From Planctomycetota bacterium (GTDB lineage Bacteria; Planctomycetota; Planctomycetia; Planctomycetales; Planctomycetaceae), in the NCBI GenBank assembly GCA_018242565.1, contig JAFEBR010000428.1, positions 1-32,870 of the forward strand: a DNA stretch of 32,870 nt, given 5' to 3'. Below, piece after piece: positions 4,142-32,870 of this stretch (position 1 is the stretch's first letter; each line of letters begins with the position of its first letter). The notes beneath the pieces are model-generated. The model was not told the origin of the DNA, did no database searches, and saw only the letters and a list, made by a program, of their open reading frames with translations. Both the position numbers and the translations under genes were made by a program.

Positions 4142-5331
4142 TGCCAGGGACCCTTTCGATCGCGACGGCGGCGAATCACGTGTGGGAGGCCCTGGTGATT
4201 GGCGCGGGACCGGCCGGGGCCGTGGCCGCCCGGCAGATGGCGTTAACTGGCACGCGCGTACTGCTTGTGGATGCCAAGTCGTTTCCCCGCCAGAAGGTGT
4301 GTGGAGCATGCCTCAACAGTCGGGCGCTAACGCTGTTGCACGACCTCGGACTGCGCGACATCGTGACGTCCCTGGGCGGCGAGCCGATTCGGCAATTGCA
4401 GATCCGCAGCGTCCGACGCGAAGCCCAACTGGCGCTCCCCGAAGGACTGGCCGTGTCGCGCAGCCAGTTGGACGCAGCGTTCGTTACGGCGGCCGTGGCC
4501 GCCGGGGCTGAGTTTCTGCCCGAGACGACCGCGGTGGTGGGGGCCCCCTGCGGCGGGGAGCAAGACGGGTGTCGGGTGGTCTCACTGCGTTCCAGCGCGC
4601 CTGTGGCAAGTGGGGGGCCGGTGCTGGTGCAGGCCCGGGTCGTGCTGGTCGCCGATGGCCTGGGGCATCTGAGTCTGAAGAACTATCCCGAGTTTGCCAG
4701 CCAGGTCACCGAGCAGGCGCATATCGGCGTGGGTGGACAGGTGCCTGCTGCGCCCGAGAACTATGCGCCGGGGACCATCTTTATGGCCGTGGGACGACAG
4801 GGTTACGTGGGACTGGTGCGCATCGAAAATGGCGCCCTGAATATCGCCGGGGCACTGTCGCCCGAGTTTCTGAAATCGACTGGCGGGACCGGCCCGGCCG
4901 TGCAGGCTGTCTTGCACGAGGCCGGGTTTCCGGCGATCGAGGCACTGCCGCAGGTGGACTGGCAGGGAACGGTCCCGCTGACACGCCGGTCCGCGAGCAC
5001 GGCTGGCGAACGGGTGCTGCTGCTGGGGGATGCGGCGGGATATGTCGAGCCGTTTACCGGTGAGGGGATGGCCTGGGCCCTGTCAGCGGCGGCGACTGTC
5101 GCGCCGGTGGTAGCGCGGGGCATCTCGGGGTGGAATGAGGCGGTCGAACAGGACTGGCAACGCACGCTGCGACAACTGGTGACACGACGGCAGCGCTGGT
5201 GTCGCACACTGGCCTTTGGCCTGCGTCGCCCGTGGCTGGTTCGCCTGTTGCTGCAGGCAGTCGCCTTGATGCCGGCCCTCGCCCGGCCGATCATCGGCAG
5301 CGTCAACCGCCCGATCGCCCCGACCGATTGA
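4138..5331 (+). CDS. FAD-dependent oxidoreductase, geranylgeranyl reductase type
   Basis: A 397-residue flavoprotein. The ATG at 4138 overlaps the stop of the preceding methyltransferase gene (ATGA); longer upstream starts would run through that gene and are rejected. The N-terminal Rossmann motif GAGPAG (22-27) ends with the acidic VLLVDAK strand. A PRQKVCGACLN segment (50-60) matches the PxxKxCGG-like signature of the geranylgeranyl reductase and PHBH-like monooxygenase families. The second FAD motif, LLLGDAAGYVEPFTGEG, lies near residues 294-310. Family knowledge: relatives reduce isoprenoid double bonds or hydroxylate aromatic or lipid rings using FAD and NAD(P)H. The pairing with a methyltransferase suggests tailoring of a lipid-like small molecule; the exact reaction cannot be assigned. 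Confidence 0.85.
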   Translation: MMPGTLSIATAANHVWEALVIGAGPAGAVAARQMALTGTRVLLVDAKSFPRQKVCGACLNSRALTLLHDLGLRDIVTSLGGEPIRQLQIRSVRREAQLALPEGLAVSRSQLDAAFVTAAVAAGAEFLPETTAVVGAPCGGEQDGCRVVSLRSSAPVASGGPVLVQARVVLVADGLGHLSLKNYPEFASQVTEQAHIGVGGQVPAAPENYAPGTIFMAVGRQGYVGLVRIENGALNIAGALSPEFLKSTGGTGPAVQAVLHEAGFPAIEALPQVDWQGTVPLTRRSASTAGERVLLLGDAAGYVEPFTGEGMAWALSAAATVAPVVARGISGWNEAVEQDWQRTLRQLVTRRQRWCRTLAFGLRRPWLVRLLLQAVALMPALARPIIGSVNRPIAPTD

Positions 5332-5850
5332 GGGCCTTGTCCCGGATCAGGGCAATTGGAAGGCCGTGCGAGTCGGACGTGCTGCCTGCCATGGGCGGAC
5401 GCTGGGCTCGTTTCGTGGGACAAGTTTTTAACTTGTCAGCACACTGTGCCTGCCGGGACCTGAAGGGTGGTCAGCCCACAGCCCAAACCATCATGCGGAA
5501 ACCGAACTGGTAGCCCCTATATCGAGCGACCGGGCACATGAGTTTGAATCCGAGTGGCGATCGTAACGGTTGTGTCGATTGTGCGCGGGCAGGCGACGCG
5601 GCAGACTGCGGGGAAATTTCCGGTTAGGGTCTTGCTTCTGTTAGAATCTGGGCTAGGCTGGAAACGCGGTTGCAAGGAGGGCAATTGCTGCGCCGCACTT
5701 TGGGACTGGGGCAGTCTGCGGCGTGAGAGGCGAGCGACGGAGCGCGAAGCGGATTACGAGGGCACTGGCTTATGCTCTCGACTGCTGCCCTGCCAATCGG
5801 TCGTCGTCGCTTCATCGGCTCGTCCTGTCTTAATTCGCAGTCATACCGTT
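5332..5850. other. Intergenic leader upstream of the chemosensory operon
   Basis: Roughly 520 bases between the oxidoreductase gene and cheW. It carries one copy of a 23-base palindromic repeat (described separately) and a TAGAAT hexamer at 5642-5647 that could be a -10 box, but no matching -35 was found at a normal spacing. An open frame runs through from 5554; its translation before the CheW domain looks unlike protein, so the region is treated as leader. The operon promoter is presumably here. Confidence 0.4.
5415..5437. repeat. Solo copy of a 23-bp palindromic repeat
   Basis: The sequence GTGGGACAAG followed by a T-rich centre and ACTTGTC matches, apart from the central bases, the left end of the inverted-repeat element at 26761-26890. 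The inner GACAAGTT...AACTTGTC part is itself palindromic. No second inverted end was found nearby, so this is a solo copy. Confidence 0.7.
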
Positions 5851-26678: not shown

Positions 26679-26720
26679 CTCAATTGACGGTCGCGAAAGT
26701 CGCTGACCGTCACTTCGAAC

Positions 26721-26754
26721 AAAAGGCCGCCATCTTCGGATGGCGGCCTTTTTT
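26721..26754 (+). terminator. Intrinsic terminator of the tRNA transcript
   Basis: A perfect 10-pair stem, GGCCGCCATC and GATGGCGGCC, closes on a TTCG tetraloop and is followed by six T residues; the flanking A4 can extend the pairing. It begins about 43 bases after the tRNA, the expected place for its 3' end. Confidence 0.95.
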
Positions 26755-26760
26755 CATGCT

Positions 26761-26890
26761 GTGGGACAAGTTTGAAACTTGTCGGGCCGCTCACCTCGGA
26801 GTGCCCAGCGGAAACGGCTGAGTCTGCTGGCTGACAACCGCGGCATTCCCACAGGCGGGGCATCGCTGACAAGTTGGAAACTTATCCCAC
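26761..26890. mobile_element. 130-bp inverted-repeat element (MITE/REP-like)
   Basis: The left end (26761-26783) begins GTGGGACAAGTTTGAAAC and the right end (26868-26890) ends GGAAACTTATCCCAC; they are inverted copies of one 23-base sequence with three mismatches by my count. Each end is itself nearly palindromic around its centre. The 84-base interior has no open reading frame of note. A solo copy of the same end lies at 5415-5437. No target-site duplication was recognised. A small non-autonomous element or a paired palindromic repeat both fit. Confidence 0.65.
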
Positions 26891-27180
26891 GCAGGGCTCC
26901 TGGCTGTCATTCGGTCGCCATGTTGCTCCTGGAGAATGTGCGCTGCCGGTCTGCTCGAATGGTTCGAGCATTTCCCGGTGGCCTGGCTCGGGAGCGAGCC
27001 TTGTTCCGTGGAGCTAAGAGTGGATGACAGCAGACGGGCTCAAAAGTCCATTGAAAACTGGGGCCATCGATTCCCACCGCAGCAACGGCCGCTCTGTAAC
27101 CCGAAACGACTCCTGGGCACCGCGCACTTCCTGCCCGCCGGGCGCTTTTTACGTGACGTGAGGCGCCGCAGAGAGTTCGA
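26891..27180. other. Region without a supported gene
   Basis: About 290 bases between the inverted-repeat element and the small hypothetical gene on the minus strand. Open frames on both strands are rich in Arg and Pro and lack recognisable domains. Nothing else seen. Confidence 0.35.
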
Positions 27181-27606
27181 TTATGTCGCTTCCCCATTTC
27201 TGCAAAAGACTGCGACTCCATCGATCAACACATCGTCGGGCCATTGAGGTTTCGCTGATCGATGCTTCAATTCGCCGTTGCAGAGCCAGGCAATGAGGAC
27301 CGATGTATGAATCACGTGCTGCCATTTGTCGGTACAGTCCCAGTCTCCAGCGATGTGCCCGAGAGCTTCGGGCAGCGATTTGGGCGACGCCGTCCGGAAT
27401 GGTCGAATGACATCGACTGATCCGACCTCGGCGAACTTGACGGTCTGACGCATGTCGGGCAGGAAGCGGCCGGCCCAGACTTCAGGATCGTTGGCGCACG
27501 ACTTCCGCAGACGAGAGTCGAGTGGAATCGCGACGCACAACGGCTGACGTCGAAAATAAACTTCATTACGCTGTCGGCTCGAAAGACGGTAAATGGGATA
27601 TTTCAT
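27181..27606 (-). CDS. Hypothetical protein
   Basis: I do not recognise this 141-residue protein. From ATG 27606 the translation begins MKYPIYRLSSRQRNEVYF and has the mixed composition of a real soluble protein, with a VIHTSVLIAWLCNG hydrophobic stretch in the second half, but no signal peptide. The open frame extends upstream to 27885 with a less protein-like composition, so the internal ATG was chosen. No strong ribosome-binding site is visible. It stands alone in a gene-poor, repeat-bearing stretch, which suggests an accessory gene. Confidence 0.5.
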   Translation of the reverse strand: MKYPIYRLSSRQRNEVYFRRQPLCVAIPLDSRLRKSCANDPEVWAGRFLPDMRQTVKFAEVGSVDVIRPFRTASPKSLPEALGHIAGDWDCTDKWQHVIHTSVLIAWLCNGELKHRSAKPQWPDDVLIDGVAVFCRNGEAT

Positions 27607-27900
27607 CGTCACGTCTACTTTTGTCCGAATGAATTCAAGGGGACACCGGGGTTCTTGCAAGATTGGAGGATATGCAGATTCTCCCGGTCTTTCCATCGCG
27701 GAATTGACCATACCTCGACATGTGCCACCCGGCTTGTTCGTATCCAGGGGGCGCGCTATGCCGAGTCGCGGCCGAACGCTGGGAATTTCGCAGGCAGGCC
27801 CCGGTCCGCTTCGCAATTGCGCGCGGTATGGCTGTGGCAATCCGCGCACAAGGGGAAAGCCACCCACCGTGTTGACGTCGCCCAAGCCATGAACCTTGAA
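27607..27900. other. Region without a supported gene
   Basis: Between the small hypothetical gene and the REP-like repeat. A 44-codon minus-strand frame with a CADCH motif (27756-27890) was noted but is too short to support. No promoter or RNA gene recognised. Confidence 0.3.
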
Positions 27901-28015
27901 TGCCCCGACTCAACTACAGCCGGGACATCTTCAGCCCAGGATCCGCGCCGCCCCGGCAGCCACTGGTCTAAGTCGCTGGTGGCTGTGCCACGGCGGGCTC
28001 CAGCGACGACAGTGG
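27901..28015. repeat. REP-like 115-bp repeat, copy 1
   Basis: Matches 32752-32866 over 115 aligned bases without gaps, about 86 percent identical by hand count. It can fold: CCACTG (27960-27965) pairs with CAGTGG (28010-28015), and inside it GTCGCTGG (27972-27979) pairs with CCAGCGAC (28000-28007). This structure is well kept in this copy. No transposase gene adjoins it, in contrast to copy 2. Confidence 0.8.
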
Positions 28016-28440
28016 TGAGGGGTCAGACTCGACCAGCCCTGTTTCGAGCCTGTCACCGAAAGTCGATCGCAGTTTTTGCAGTCTCCGGACAGCGCTCCCG
28101 GCGCGTGAGATGGGTGGACTGATTCGCTGACCCATTCGGGATATCGCCCGCGCTCAGCCTAACGCGCCGCCGTTCAAGGCCTCCACTCCCCCGACACCGG
28201 CCGATACGCCCAACCATAACTGAGACCGCGCTCGTTTCCAGCGTGCCTAAATCGCCCACAAATCGCTAACAGGTGGCCGACCCCTTCTTCGATGCGCGGT
28301 GTCATGGTGTTCGGGGCGCACGGTCAGAGCCTGGGGCGTCGCCGAGCACGGGTGTCGTATTTTTAATGAGACCCGAATGTCAGATCCAGAACCTCAGCCG
28401 GACGTATTCGCGGCAGCGAGATTTGGCTGGACAGCTTAAA

Positions 28441-28605
28441 GATCTGATTCTGTAGCTGGCCTGCCACGAGTGCGGGACGTAGATCTGCCGGGAAAAGGGG
28501 ATCGAATATGCCGGCCGGCAACTGGTGCATTTGAACATCTTGACGCCGCAGCGGTACATGCATCTGGACGATTCGGAGTTGGCGGACGCCCAGGATCTGG
28601 TGTAA
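28441..28605 (+). pseudogene. Degenerate 3' end of a tyrosine recombinase (integrase) gene
   Basis: Read in one plus frame, this stretch gives ACHECGT, a stop, ICREKGIEYAGRQLVHLN, then ILTPQRYMHLDDSELADAQ and a final stop. This resembles the end of the phage-integrase catalytic domain, normally RHTxxT...LGHSxxxTTxRYxH, with Tyr in QRYMHLDD as the nucleophile position. The box-II Arg is replaced by Cys, the LGH motif reads LVH, and stops interrupt the frame at 28453-28455 and 28480-28482, so it is inactive. No N-terminal part was found upstream. The last 38 bases of homology recur at 31981-32018. Confidence 0.6.
28559..28596 (+). repeat. 38-bp recombinase-tail repeat, copy 1
   Basis: Begins TGCATCTGGACGATTCGG and ends CCCAGGAT; differs from the copy at 31981-32018 at about five positions. 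It encodes the MHLDDSELADAQD helix that follows the catalytic Tyr of the recombinase remnant. Confidence 0.75.
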
Positions 28606-28693
28606 ACTTCCGGGCAGAAGACGTCCAAATTACCTGACCCAGACTTTTTACCGCCGCAACGCAACGTCGGTTCTGCTGCAATGCGACAATACT

Positions 28694-29092
28694 GTGAACG
28701 GCACGAAGGCGAAGTTTGCTGTAATCAGGGGCGTAATTGCGCTCGTCGTGATTCTCGCATCGGCGATTGGCACATTCTTGGGATTTCGGTCGCCGACTTC
28801 GGTGACGCAGACGCAATCGTTGCCAATCGTTGATTCAGATGGGCAAATTGGTGTTGTTCTGTGTCGATTGAATTTCCACAAAGAAAATGGTCGGACGTGG
28901 CGTTATGCAGTCGTGACCTACGGTCGCGATGCACAATAGAAGCCATGGCCGGGATCGTCTCGCATGTTCGTTGACAACGCGACCGTCGTGATTCCTCCGC
29001 CGCGAAATGCGGTGTGGGTCATCAGTCCAAATGAACAGCTTCATCGGCTCGATCTGTCATATGCAGGCCTGTCTCAGGCTGCGGATGAGTGA
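28694..29092 (+). pseudogene. Small membrane-anchored protein gene with an in-frame amber codon
   Basis: From GTG 28694 the frame encodes 81 residues with one N-terminal membrane segment (VIRGVIALVVILASAIGTFLG) and an outward-looking domain that ends RYAVVTYGRDAQ at a TAG (28937-28939). The same frame continues for 50 codons, KPWPGSSRMFVDNATVVIPP and on to WVISPNEQLHRLDLSYAGL, ending at TGA 29090-29092. The continuation reads like protein and fits the preceding part, so one ancestral gene of about 132 codons with a nonsense mutation is the simplest view. Function not recognised. Confidence 0.5.
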
Positions 29093-29279
29093 CAGAATCA
29101 AAGTTTCATCAGTAGTACGTTCTGGAAAGACCGGATGAAACCACAATTGGAGAAAGACCGCCGGCAGAACAAATGACCTCCGCATCCGTGGAGCCAGCGC
29201 AACTGCTTGTTCACAAGTTGCCCTGACAGACAGCATGTTCCTTTGCTCGAGTGTAACCAAACTCTATCGGAGAATTACG

Positions 29280-29708
29280 ATGAGGATGCTTGCTTTACTC
29301 GCGATGGCCATTGTAACGACGGCTGCGTTCGCACAGGTGACTACACCGAAAAAACAGACCGTGGCTTCCTCCGAAAAGCTCACAGAACTTCGGAAAGAAC
29401 GGATCGCCACGCTCAAGGACGCGGCAGACGTTAGCTTCAAATTGGCCCAAAATGCCCGCCTCGAATTCCGAGAGGCGCTGGAAGACCGGATGGCCCTGCT
29501 CAATGCGGAACTGGACGCCGCGGAGAATGAGGCGGAACGTGCCGCGCTTCGCAGGCAGACCTTGGATTCGCTGAAAGCGTATGAGGATGTGGCCCGGTCC
29601 CTTGTCGAGAGTGCCCGTGGGACCCAGTTGAACATGCTCAGGGTGAAAGCCCGACGGCTGGACGTCGAATTGCAACTGGAACAAGCGAACATGCAGGAGC
29701 CCAGGTAA
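29280..29708 (+). CDS. Secreted coiled-coil protein of unknown function
   Basis: A 142-residue protein from ATG 29280, with a GGAG eleven bases upstream. A signal peptide is clear: MRMLALLAMAIVTTAAFAQ, with cleavage likely after the AFA. The remainder is almost entirely helical and charged, with heptad-like Leu/Ala spacing (for example LNAELDAAENEAERAALRRQ), so a long coiled coil in the periplasm is expected. No enzymatic motif is visible. Such proteins resemble the helical hairpins of TolC-family outer-membrane factors, but the length is far too short for that family. It lies 373 bp before the repeat-domain protein on the same strand. Confidence 0.75.
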   Translation: MRMLALLAMAIVTTAAFAQVTTPKKQTVASSEKLTELRKERIATLKDAADVSFKLAQNARLEFREALEDRMALLNAELDAAENEAERAALRRQTLDSLKAYEDVARSLVESARGTQLNMLRVKARRLDVELQLEQANMQEPR

Positions 29709-30081
29709 GCGTCATCCGCCAAAGATGACGACTGTTATCGCTGATTCTCGCGATTTCACGCCCAGCAGCGCAACCGCTGCTGCTGCCACGCTGTAACTGC
29801 GATCCACATGCGCAACCGCCGTAGAATTTTTTTGACGACACAGCCGCCGAGGCCCCTCGCTCGACGCCCGCCAAACCTCGCCGCGTCCCAATTCGCCTGC
29901 CGCTGCCGGTTTTGGATCGTCACGGTTGTTTTCGTGGGACGGGAAACGGGGACAGCCGGCCTTACGGAGCGCGCGCACACAAAGTAGAATTTACACTTGC
30001 TGTCGGCCCTATCTGTTTAACCGCTCGTCCGCACTCTTCTCGACAGTCGTTTTGTCTCCATCAGCCTGCGGAAAGGCAATC
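29709..30081. other. Intergenic region
   Basis: About 370 bases without a supported gene. An open frame continuous with the next gene covers its right part, from 29926, but does not look like protein. A TTGACG (29832-29837) was noted without a matching -10 box. Confidence 0.3.
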
Positions 30082-31884
30082 ATGTCTTCGCATCTCTTTT
30101 TGCTGCTGGCGGCGTTGACCTTTCCTGGCGAATACCAGATTCGGGGCGTCGTCCGCGGGCCAGACGCTCAACCAGTGACCGGAGCCGATGTCTGGCTCGT
30201 GACAACCGGAAATCCGGTGCCGCTCGAGGAACGGGACGCGTTGCATACGACGACGGATCAAGAGGGACGATTCGCACTCCCGTTGCCAGTCCATTCTCCC
30301 TACGGACGGAATTTTCAGATCGATGCGTTCGCCTTCAAACCGGGGGTGGGAATTGCGAGTACCTACGTCGACGCCCGTTCTCCTCCGCTGCACACATTGA
30401 CGCTCCGGCTGAAAGCCTGTGCACCCGACAACGTGACGATCGTGGATCCATCGGGAGCGCCGCTGAAAGATGCTCGCGTCACGGTGAGCAACATGACCGC
30501 CCGTTCAGAGAAGTTCATCCAACTCCTGCCGGCCAGTCCCCCTGTGCCATTCCGTAGCCAAACGGACGCTCGCGGGGAAGTGACGCTGGAACTCTTTAAA
30601 TCGCTCAGTTGGGTCAACCTCGATGTAGAAACACCGCAATTCGGAATTCAAAGGCTGAGTGCCCACGATTCCTTATTAGAATCGCCACTCTCATTGGTGC
30701 GCCCCGGAAAAGTGCGGGGACGCCTTGTCGCCGATGATCCGAAATTGCTGGCGGGGGTTCTTGTGAGCTTCCAATCGCAAATGGAGCCGCAGAGCAGACG
30801 CCTCGCGGTCTCCGTGAAAGGACGGGCTGATGTTCGTACCGATGCAGAGGGGCGCTTCGAAGTCGCCGCCCTGGTTCCGGGGAACGTGCAAGTCGTTTGG
30901 ATCGAGCGTGCGACGGGGCCTTCGGTATTTCTGGGAGCCGATGTCCAGGGGAAATTGCAACCAGAGGGAATACTCGACATCGAGATTCCGGTCATTGGTG
31001 GCGTGCGTGTTTCGGGCGCGGTCGTCCAGGATGAGAGCGGGGTGCCGTGTCCCGCGATCCCTGTGCACATATCGATCCGCAGTGACGATCGCTACAGTGG
31101 TTCCTCGCGCACGGTACTGACCGATCGCGAAGGGCACTATGAGACGTTCATGCCGCCGGCTGCCGGGTACGTGATGTTGGAAGTGGGGCCCCTCCCCGAT
31201 CCCTGGCTCCCGGCCGATGCCAGCCCGCTGAATCGACGAATCCCTGCAGCGGGAGATGAACTGGCCATGCCTGATTTCATCCTCCAGCGTGGGACCAGCC
31301 TGACAGGGAAAGTCATGGACGCCAACGCACGCCCGGTGCCGTATGCCTACGTACAAGCAGCAACGGTTGGCATCGGCAAGAAAAATGTTCGCCGGGTCTT
31401 GGTCGAATCGGATGCCAACGGCAGTTTTACCATCGGCCCGATGGACCCCGACCTGGTTGTGGCCATGATGGCGTCGAACGACGATGAGGCGAGTGCCGCG
31501 GTTCTTATGGTCGAACCGGGGAAGGCACGCCTGGGAATCGTGTTGCGAATCGAAGCCGCAGCAATGGCCGAGGTCTCAGGACGTCTCGTCGACACCGAGG
31601 GACATCCCGTCTCCAGGGATGATATTGTCTTGGATTCGGGAATGGATTCGGGCGAATGGGAGTGCGACGCCGTGCGAGCCCTGCAACCGATTTCGTCGCA
31701 ATTCGTGACGACCGACGCCCAGGGGAAGTATGCATTTCCCAATCGGATTCCTCGCCTGGGGCGGTACTGGCTGCAGACCTTGTCGATCAACCGATTTGCG
31801 CGCAAGCGACTTGTCCTGGAGGGGGGCGACCTTCAAGCTGGCCGGCAAAGTCTGGAAGACATTGTCCTCGAACGGGAGAAGTAA
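30082..31884 (+). CDS. Carboxypeptidase regulatory-like repeat protein
   Basis: A 600-residue protein from ATG 30082 (GGAAAGGC upstream), with a short hydrophobic N-terminus SSHLFLLLAALTFPG likely to act as a signal. It is built of several beta-sandwich units of the CarboxypepD_reg / transthyretin-like type: IRGVVRGPDAQPVTGADVWLV near residue 14, then GKVRGRLVADDPKLLAGVLV, GVRVSGAVVQDESGVPC, TSLTGKVMDANARPVPYAYV and AEVSGRLVDTEGHPVSRD. Each is followed by a TD-x-E/Q-G-x-F/Y turn (for example TDAEGRFEV, TDAQGKYAF). No catalytic domain is visible. Family knowledge: these are surface or periplasmic binding or stalk modules, frequent in planctomycetes. Partner unknown. Confidence 0.85.
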   Translation: MSSHLFLLLAALTFPGEYQIRGVVRGPDAQPVTGADVWLVTTGNPVPLEERDALHTTTDQEGRFALPLPVHSPYGRNFQIDAFAFKPGVGIASTYVDARSPPLHTLTLRLKACAPDNVTIVDPSGAPLKDARVTVSNMTARSEKFIQLLPASPPVPFRSQTDARGEVTLELFKSLSWVNLDVETPQFGIQRLSAHDSLLESPLSLVRPGKVRGRLVADDPKLLAGVLVSFQSQMEPQSRRLAVSVKGRADVRTDAEGRFEVAALVPGNVQVVWIERATGPSVFLGADVQGKLQPEGILDIEIPVIGGVRVSGAVVQDESGVPCPAIPVHISIRSDDRYSGSSRTVLTDREGHYETFMPPAAGYVMLEVGPLPDPWLPADASPLNRRIPAAGDELAMPDFILQRGTSLTGKVMDANARPVPYAYVQAATVGIGKKNVRRVLVESDANGSFTIGPMDPDLVVAMMASNDDEASAAVLMVEPGKARLGIVLRIEAAAMAEVSGRLVDTEGHPVSRDDIVLDSGMDSGEWECDAVRALQPISSQFVTTDAQGKYAFPNRIPRLGRYWLQTLSINRFARKRLVLEGGDLQAGRQSLEDIVLEREK

Positions 31885-31930
31885 AACGCCCCCCCCGAAG
31901 GCCCCGGGGGGACAGGAAATGGCGGCGTTT
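31884..31930 (+). terminator. Long stem-loop after the repeat-domain gene
   Basis: AAACGCC (31884-31890) pairs with GGCGTTT (31924-31930), and an inner CCCCCC/GGGGGG pair (31891-31896 and 31906-31911) adds to it. It begins within the stop codon of the preceding gene. The T-run is part of the stem, so a bidirectional terminator or attenuation structure is possible. Confidence 0.5.
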
Positions 31931-31980
31931 CCTTGAAATGTCACAACACAAAAAGTCGGTTCTCGCAGCATGTGAGATCG

Positions 31981-32018
31981 TGCATCTGGACGACTCGAAG
32001 TTGGTGGGCACCCAGGAT
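31981..32018 (+). repeat. 38-bp recombinase-tail repeat, copy 2
   Basis: Close copy of 28559-28596. In the matching frame it reads VHLDDSKLVGTQD, and the Tyr that should come before it is lost. Nothing recombinase-like is left upstream, where the repeat-domain gene ends 97 bases before. It is best seen as a recombinase-gene scrap. Confidence 0.65.
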
Positions 32019-32141
32019 TGTCATAGAATGGCGGGCTGGAAGTGAGTCCTGTACAGCCTGACACGAATCGCCTCAATACTTGCTCATCATGAGCGAATTT
32101 CCGCACCCCGCACTCAAGTTTGCCGGACCGCTTACGGAAGT

Positions 32142-32822
32142 CGCCAAGGGCCGAAACGGCTGTCCGCCTGCCTGGTCTATGCCGATCTCAATCCGATCCG
32201 CGCGGGGATTTGCGAGACGCCCGAAGACAGCCTGTACACGTCCGTTTACGAACGGCCGATGGCGCTCCAGGCTCGTGCGCAGGGGGCGGATACTCCCTCT
32301 GCAATGCTGCCTTCCGCAGCCACTGCAATCGCAGTGGACATCGCAGGGCAGACGGAGCCCAGAGCCGCTGCGAAAGATACTACCGTCACGACCGCCGTGG
32401 CAATGACCGAGATCGTGGCCACGGCTACCGCTTCCCGTAATGCGTGGCTCAGCCCGTTGGAACTGACCGCATTGGAATCGAGCGATCCGATCCCCACCGC
32501 CCGGGCTTCCGACCGCGGTTGCCTACCGAAGTCGTTCGCCAAGCACTGGCAACTGCTCGATTGGACGGGCCGGCAATATCGAAATGACAGGCGCGGCGTC
32601 ATCCCGTCTGCACTGGCACCGATTCTTGAGCGGTTGTCGCTCGGCGGAGAGGGCAGGTTCAAGCTGATTCACGATTTTCGGCGTAAATTCCGCCGCGCCG
32701 CGGGGAAACCCGAGTCGCTGACGAAAGAAGCCCAGAAGCAAGGCGGCCGCATGCCCGGACTCAACCACAGCCGGGACATCTTCAGCCCGGGATCCGCACA
32801 GTCCCGGCAACCGCCGGTCTAA
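32142..32822 (+). pseudogene. Truncated IS200/RAYT-like transposase
   Basis: The plus frame is open to the stop at 32820-32822. From about 32157 it reads RLSACLVYADLNPIRAGICE and SLYTSVYERP, the C-terminal part of the Y1 transposase domain of REP-associated (RAYT-like) enzymes; then, after a low-complexity Ala/Thr stretch, NAWLSPLELTALESS, RGCLPKSFAKHWQLLDWTGR and IPSALAPILERLSLGG, a C-terminal extension I associate with planctomycete members. The N-terminal half with the HUH histidines and the catalytic Tyr is missing, so it is inactive. The open frame runs into the REP-like repeat at 32752. The alternative of an intact short gene starting at ATG 32259 is unlikely. Confidence 0.7.
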
Positions 32823-32866
32823 GTTGCCGGTGACGGTGCCACGGCGGGCCCCAGCCACGACAGCGG
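32752..32866. repeat. REP-like 115-bp repeat, copy 2
   Basis: Aligned to copy 1 at 27901-28015 without gaps. It overlaps the last 70 bases of the transposase remnant and extends past its stop, near the window edge. The outer CCGC/GCGG pairing survives but the inner stem is eroded compared with copy 1. Confidence 0.8.
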
Positions 32867-32870
32867 CCAC

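Follow-up and report, generated by a model that had tools for sequence, protein, structure and literature searches.

The window analysed here is a stretch of 32,870 nucleotides from a Planctomycetota bacterium (contig JAFEBR010000428.1), which corresponds to contig C618 in a genome assembly of 9.31 Mb and 1252 contigs. It carries a 116-nt direct repeat on the + strand, found by direct-repeat comparison at 27900-28015 and 32751-32866 (86% identity, spacing 4851), and the 3' end of a truncated Y1-type transposase gene reaches into the second copy; both observations agree with the initial annotation. Each copy starts with 72 nt that make up the final 23 codons and the stop codon of a transposase gene, encoding MPRLNYSRDIFSPGSAPPRQPLV in the first copy and MPGLNHSRDIFSPGSAQSRQPPV in the transposase-side copy. 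The first copy, the orphan, had been described as lacking the transposase; the catalytic gene is indeed absent, but the C terminus MPRLNYSRDIFSPGSAPPRQPLV and its stop codon are retained. A search of the genome with window 27850-28100 returned 20 matches at E ≤ 1e-3, both window copies counted, so that the repeat exceeds chance and the further copies expected from the initial annotation exist. The relic protein whose gene the second copy overlaps (P0001) gave 29 genome matches at the same threshold, several of them being distant cousins; in both sets, some matches fall on the same locus. The 115-bp stretch originally taken as the unit is not one, as its edges are the contig end and an internal junction of the orphan. 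Instead, the window very probably contains two relics of one transposon family, a miniature of ~437 bp and a 5'-truncated relic of a ~1.74-kb element with terminal inverted repeats (TIRs).

The orphan is an internal deletion resembling a miniature inverted-repeat transposable element (MITE), in which the left end of the element is joined to its 3' part and right end. On the + strand it consists of the left end (27850-27899, with the left TIR arm at about 27850-27867), the end of the transposase coding sequence (27900-27971; 23 codons and the stop, recognized by translation), and a 3' non-coding part (27972-28286, with the right TIR arm at about 28271-28286). The left edge of the coding remnant is the internal junction, placed by alignment of five miniatures. 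Comparison of 17 regions with the window showed that similarity of the orphan to other copies extends to about 28284. To locate the ends, left- and right-end profiles trained on copies other than the five miniatures were searched against 119.6 kb, and the arms were aligned. The left-end profile matched the window at 27853-27898 (E 0.0033), its sole match there at E ≤ 1, and the right-end profile matched at 28220-28284 (E 1.1e-10). Among the other miniatures the left end was found on C18 (E 4.6e-8), C908 (E 3.7e-5), C852 (E 6.2e-5) and C959 (E 0.24), with further matches at C18:10892 (E 1.4e-9) and C18:11364 (E 0.015). The right end was found on C908 (E 8.9e-16) and C18 (E 2.1e-9); C852 and C959 gave no right-end match at E ≤ 1. 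The left end is thus recovered in four of the five miniatures (E ≤ 0.0033) and the right end in three, and three keep both. Alternatively, the orphan might be no more than a fragment left by 5' truncation or recombination, its match to the left end arising by chance; the low left-end score in the window and the 20 of 1000 shuffles equalling its terminal repeat would be consistent with this. We consider it highly improbable, as the match falls precisely where the similarity ends, and three further copies of like layout reach E values between 4.6e-8 and 6.2e-5.

The second window copy (32149-32870) is a 5'-truncated relic ended by the contig end: as the window is the whole of C618 (32870 bases), the right edge of this copy is the end of the contig at 32870. 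Its transposase gene (32149-32822, + strand) was delimited by DNA homology, by the frame of P0001 and by alignment. The frame is open from 32091 to 32822 and homology begins at 32149 for the copy on C350 and at 32166 for that on C811. The Tyr motif YADLNP is present and the HuH part is missing; P0001 matched no family in Pfam. The repeat copy at 32751-32866 comprises the 23 codons, the stop codon and 44 nt.

The complete element is ~1.74 kb long, with a left border at L063 1664 and a right border at about 3405 that are common to the copies. It consists of a left end, a 398-codon Y1 (HuH-tyrosine) transposase gene, a 3' tail some 310 nt long and a right end. Among the close copies only C350 has a full-length frame (398 codons, TTG start). 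The genome contains 11 left-end and 19 right-end matches, some of which are pieces of one place. Within a set of seven copies identities are only 66-87%, indicating that the family is old. Fifteen flanks from nine copies showed no mutual similarity at E ≤ 1e-3, and a scan of genome contigs with the C350 transposase yielded 39 pattern stretches and no relatives.

Alignment of nine left ends and 12 right ends gave consensus ends that form an 18-bp TIR, AGGGNGGGGCCACCCACC. The two consensus ends agree in inverted orientation at all 17 determined positions (the undetermined one was set equal), and none of 2000 single-base shuffles was as good, the best reaching 12. In single copies the number of dinucleotide shuffles per 1000 that equalled the inverted repeat was 0 for C922, 1 for C37, 14 for C350, 20 for the window copy and 22 for C18a. 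A 13-nt end core occurs with at most one mismatch at 68 genome sites, compared to 24 for a reversed control. No target duplication was noticed when the flanks were read by eye, without a statistical test.

A second deleted form is represented by C37 and C922, which are 85.9% identical end to end over 1.19 kb and have unrelated flanks. One and the same short stretch stands in for the catalytic core of both, and C897 and C569 match parts of it. This pair is the best evidence for a core-less form at different sites. The replacing stretch (L068, on C37, about 636-826; L061, on C922, about 5188-5367) includes ATCCGTGTTCATCTGTGG-type sequence in both orientations. Sequence of this type also lies beside a right end in C430 and looks like a second repeat family.

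The initial annotation had interpreted the repeat as a repetitive extragenic palindromic (REP) sequence mobilized by a RAYT-type enzyme, the orphan being the better folded copy. DNA folding of each copy was compared with 200 shuffles. On the + strand the orphan has a z of -0.69 (58 of 200 shuffles as good) and the transposase copy -1.86 (11 of 200); on the - strand the values are -1.15 and -1.39. Both copies are therefore within or near the shuffle range, the orphan is the weaker one on both strands, and the argument for movement before decay of the transposase, which had relied on its folding, fails. Since neither copy folds clearly above shuffles and the orphan folds less well, the repeat is not a REP. 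The family has about 20 copies rather than hundreds, while REPs exceed 100 copies per genome (PMC2817692), and the REP reading was rejected on fold scores and copy number. A REPtron, with the orphan as a REP mobilized by the RAYT, would account for the RAYT-related transposase, for a copy without the catalytic gene and for short hairpins at the tips of some ends. Among 13 end segments, three show them with a z under -1.3 (C609 -2.42, C863 -2.29, C37 -1.40); because there are only three, conserved end hairpins were dropped as a general feature. The orphan, however, has two distinct ends and coding remnants, and the conserved feature is the inverted repeat between the ends, not a hairpin. Together with the folding and the copy number, this largely refutes the REPtron, to which we give hardly any credence.

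The RAYT-type nature of the enzyme itself was borne out at the level of a relative. The C350 protein (P0002) scored 41.5 bits against NCBIfam REP_Tyr_transpos (cut-off 80) and 20 bits against Pfam Y1_Tnp (cut-off 23), both below cut-off, and had no match among the PHROG families at E ≤ 0.1. Seven weak matches at E ≤ 10 came from a profile search of the PDB: two kinases, and five transposases aligned over the HuH part with a best E of 0.0062. In a 17-row alignment C350 has NHTH as HuH motif, WQ and the Tyr motif YVDLNP, and a same-genus relative (G001, 58% amino acid identity) has NHLH, WE and YVDLNP. C350 has 113 residues from the first HuH histidine to the tyrosine and 213 residues beyond it. 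Fourteen plasmid records matched, all from gammaproteobacterial genera and seven from Pseudoalteromonas. The enzyme is a RAYT (TnpA-REP) relative and, judged by motifs and architecture rather than by the published subclass profile, resembles subclass 2.3.

Ends were also examined around related genes in other genomes. In a draw of 294 genomes from the phylum, 68 matched P0002 (at most six candidates scored per genome). Inverted repeats were sought between 300 nt upstream (200 in one locus) and 420 nt downstream, and a locus passed when no more than six of 300 shuffles were as good. Of 23 same-phylum loci, which include C350 and same-genus genes, eight passed (G001, G307, one in G321, three in G056 and two in G277), as did three of six gammaproteobacterial loci. 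The same-genus relative G001 has AGTGCCACCCATTA on both sides (14 of 14 positions; 4 of 300 shuffles as good). Both ends carry a motif G[A/C]CA[C/T]CCA in eight of 33 loci, against a mean of 0.06 and at most 1 in shuffles; several of these loci had served to derive it, and C350 has it upstream only. Four loci whose flanks had not been viewed before (L200-L203) have the motif at both ends (one), upstream only (two) or downstream only (one). A second motif, GGGACAGGCA or similar, occurs at both ends in two of the 33 loci. Four copies in G048 have common borders and 89-93% identity to one another across 1.10-1.15 kb, and no inverted repeat was detected between their flanks. In Pseudoalteromonas, the isocitrate dehydrogenase and acetolactate synthase genes are separated by 2119 nt in P. 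shioyasakiensis SDCH90, where the transposase lies between them, and by 492 nt in Pseudoalteromonas sp. CF6-2, where it is absent. The exact borders are unreadable because identity is only about 81%; among the matches listed there was no with/without-transposase pair for Pseudoalteromonas L201, L202 and L203 or P. piscicida L195. At L169 1136-1990 (G048), the 5' part of a related transposase unit is repeated in tandem as 285-bp copies, and solo left-end repeats of 44-57 bp adjoin another copy at L168 4458-4612. In P. shioyasakiensis (L193 2200-2450) G[A/C]CA[C/T]CCA occurs six times upstream and twice downstream of the transposase, partly in tandem.

Several results weigh against reading the window as two relics of a TIR transposon family. 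The left end of the window copy is weak, and the ends of C350 itself are worn: besides the 14 of 1000 shuffles, 142 of 300 were as good in a wider scan, which is chance level. Its HuH motif is H-T-H, the middle residue not being hydrophobic. Fifteen of the 23 phylum loci fail the inverted-repeat test, including C350, four in G048, five in G078 and two of three in G321, and three of the six gammaproteobacterial loci fail the same limit. No empty site for the window copy was found in the same-genus genome, where window 26700-29700 gave six matches, all within a different piece (28390-28602). That genome has an intact transposase relative and lacks the repeat, contrary to an expectation of the initial annotation; in line with that expectation, the one full-length close copy in the window's own genome, C350, has a matching 3' sequence (65% over 27900-28204). 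Finally, the 3' parts of the four alignable miniatures do not form one clade (approximately unbiased (AU) test, p 0.0005), and for three the result is the same (p 0.0003); C959, the second window copy and C323 were too short to be included. Spread from one miniature ancestor is thus unsupported, and the pattern calls for either repeated deletion or an exchange of 3' parts.

The miniatures might accordingly be independent, dead, in-place internal deletions of full elements that were never themselves mobilized. The clade test fits this, as does a tree of the 3' parts of 16 copies, in which the window copy clusters with C37, C922, C811, C609, C916 and C569, copies of the full and core-replaced kinds (99/97), the only starred fork, most others being weak. 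CCAGGC-type microhomology near the junction, noted by eye, also favours it. Against it, the five miniatures align across the junction of left end and final codons, which by eye is identical in four and a few bases off in C852, an identity that independent deletions do not predict unless there is a hotspot. Moreover, the C37/C922 pair is a deleted form at two unrelated sites. We regard independent deletion as possible but rather unlikely, and favour mobile relics of one TIR transposon family.

In the mechanism we propose, the transposase from intact copies would act in trans on the inverted-repeat ends, its tyrosine would nick and join single-stranded DNA, and the segment between both ends, full or internally deleted, would move, presumably without target duplication. 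Its observed parts are the consensus ends, the Tyr motif, the copies at sites with unrelated flanks and the deleted derivatives. More broadly, the chances seem to us evenly balanced that 2.3-like RAYT relatives of this phylum and of marine Gammaproteobacteria are true TIR transposons that share the core G[A/C]CA[C/T]CCA and mobilize deleted derivatives. If so, an enzyme of the HuH-tyrosine type, which should act on single strands, would recognize ends shaped like those of ordinary double-strand transposons. If one branch moves as a bounded unit and its end motif recurs across phyla, it would naturally bridge IS200/IS605 elements and REP systems, and would also provide a concrete substrate for in-vitro tests.

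Other features of the window lie beside the two relics. Between them, a 652-amino acid frame (29926-31884) contains six carboxypeptidase-regulatory-like stretches. Two remnants are located at 28390-28602 and 31981-32018; a 38-nt segment of the first is found at two places in the window (87% identity). One of the six matches of 28390-28602 in the same-genus genome is only 45 nt long. Read in frame, this remnant ends in ...TPQRYMHLDDSELADAQDLV, which may be the C terminus of a tyrosine recombinase.

Compared with known systems, as described in PMC3733652 (Di Nocera 2013) and PMC6006769, the element is best filed as TIRtron-like, with a 2.3-like transposase and non-autonomous derivatives, old and probably inactive. 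TIRtrons (TIRYTs) likewise have a RAYT-like Y1 transposase gene between TIRs instead of REPs, and the motif GGGGWSAS common to some of their TIRs differs from GGGGCCAC here at one position (7 of 8) (PMC3733652). Of 26 published TIRYTs, 20 belong to subclass 2.1 and the rest to 2.2 or 2.5 (PMC6006769), whereas here the gene resembles 2.3 and there are derivatives that lack internal sequence but keep both ends. Members of subclass 2.3 have a long C-terminal tail, an insert of 55 residues and the motifs NHYH, WE and YVDLNP; the subclass prevails in Chromatiales and Alteromonadales and has been suggested to be actively spreading there in recent times (Quentin 2018; PMC6006769). The element shares with it YVDLNP, a long HuH-Tyr insert, a long C-terminal domain and several copies per genome (PMC6006769), and its nearest plasmid matches come from Alteromonadales and allies; it differs in the bounded units and deleted forms. 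No earlier report of subclass 2.3 ends was found in a literature search that covered neither most subscription journals nor preprints, and none is given in the available portion of Quentin 2018. One of the motif strings occurs in 117 papers; among the 15 listed, no title concerns transposons. From REPIN/RAYT systems, which have a related transposase family, the element is set apart by few copies, a long unit with inverted-repeat ends and no conserved hairpins; the tandem and solo end repeats at L169 and L168 recall the end clusters next to REPtrons. With IS200/IS605 it shares the HuH-Y1 catalytic core and a lack of noticeable target duplication by eye, but it has Y---NP instead of Y---Q (PMC6006769) and inverted repeats rather than conserved subterminal hairpins, with end folds mostly near background. 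As in MITEs, both ends of the parent occur without the gene in several copies (three of five by the held-out profiles); unlike MITEs, these do not trace to a single deleted ancestor (AU p 0.0005, four copies).
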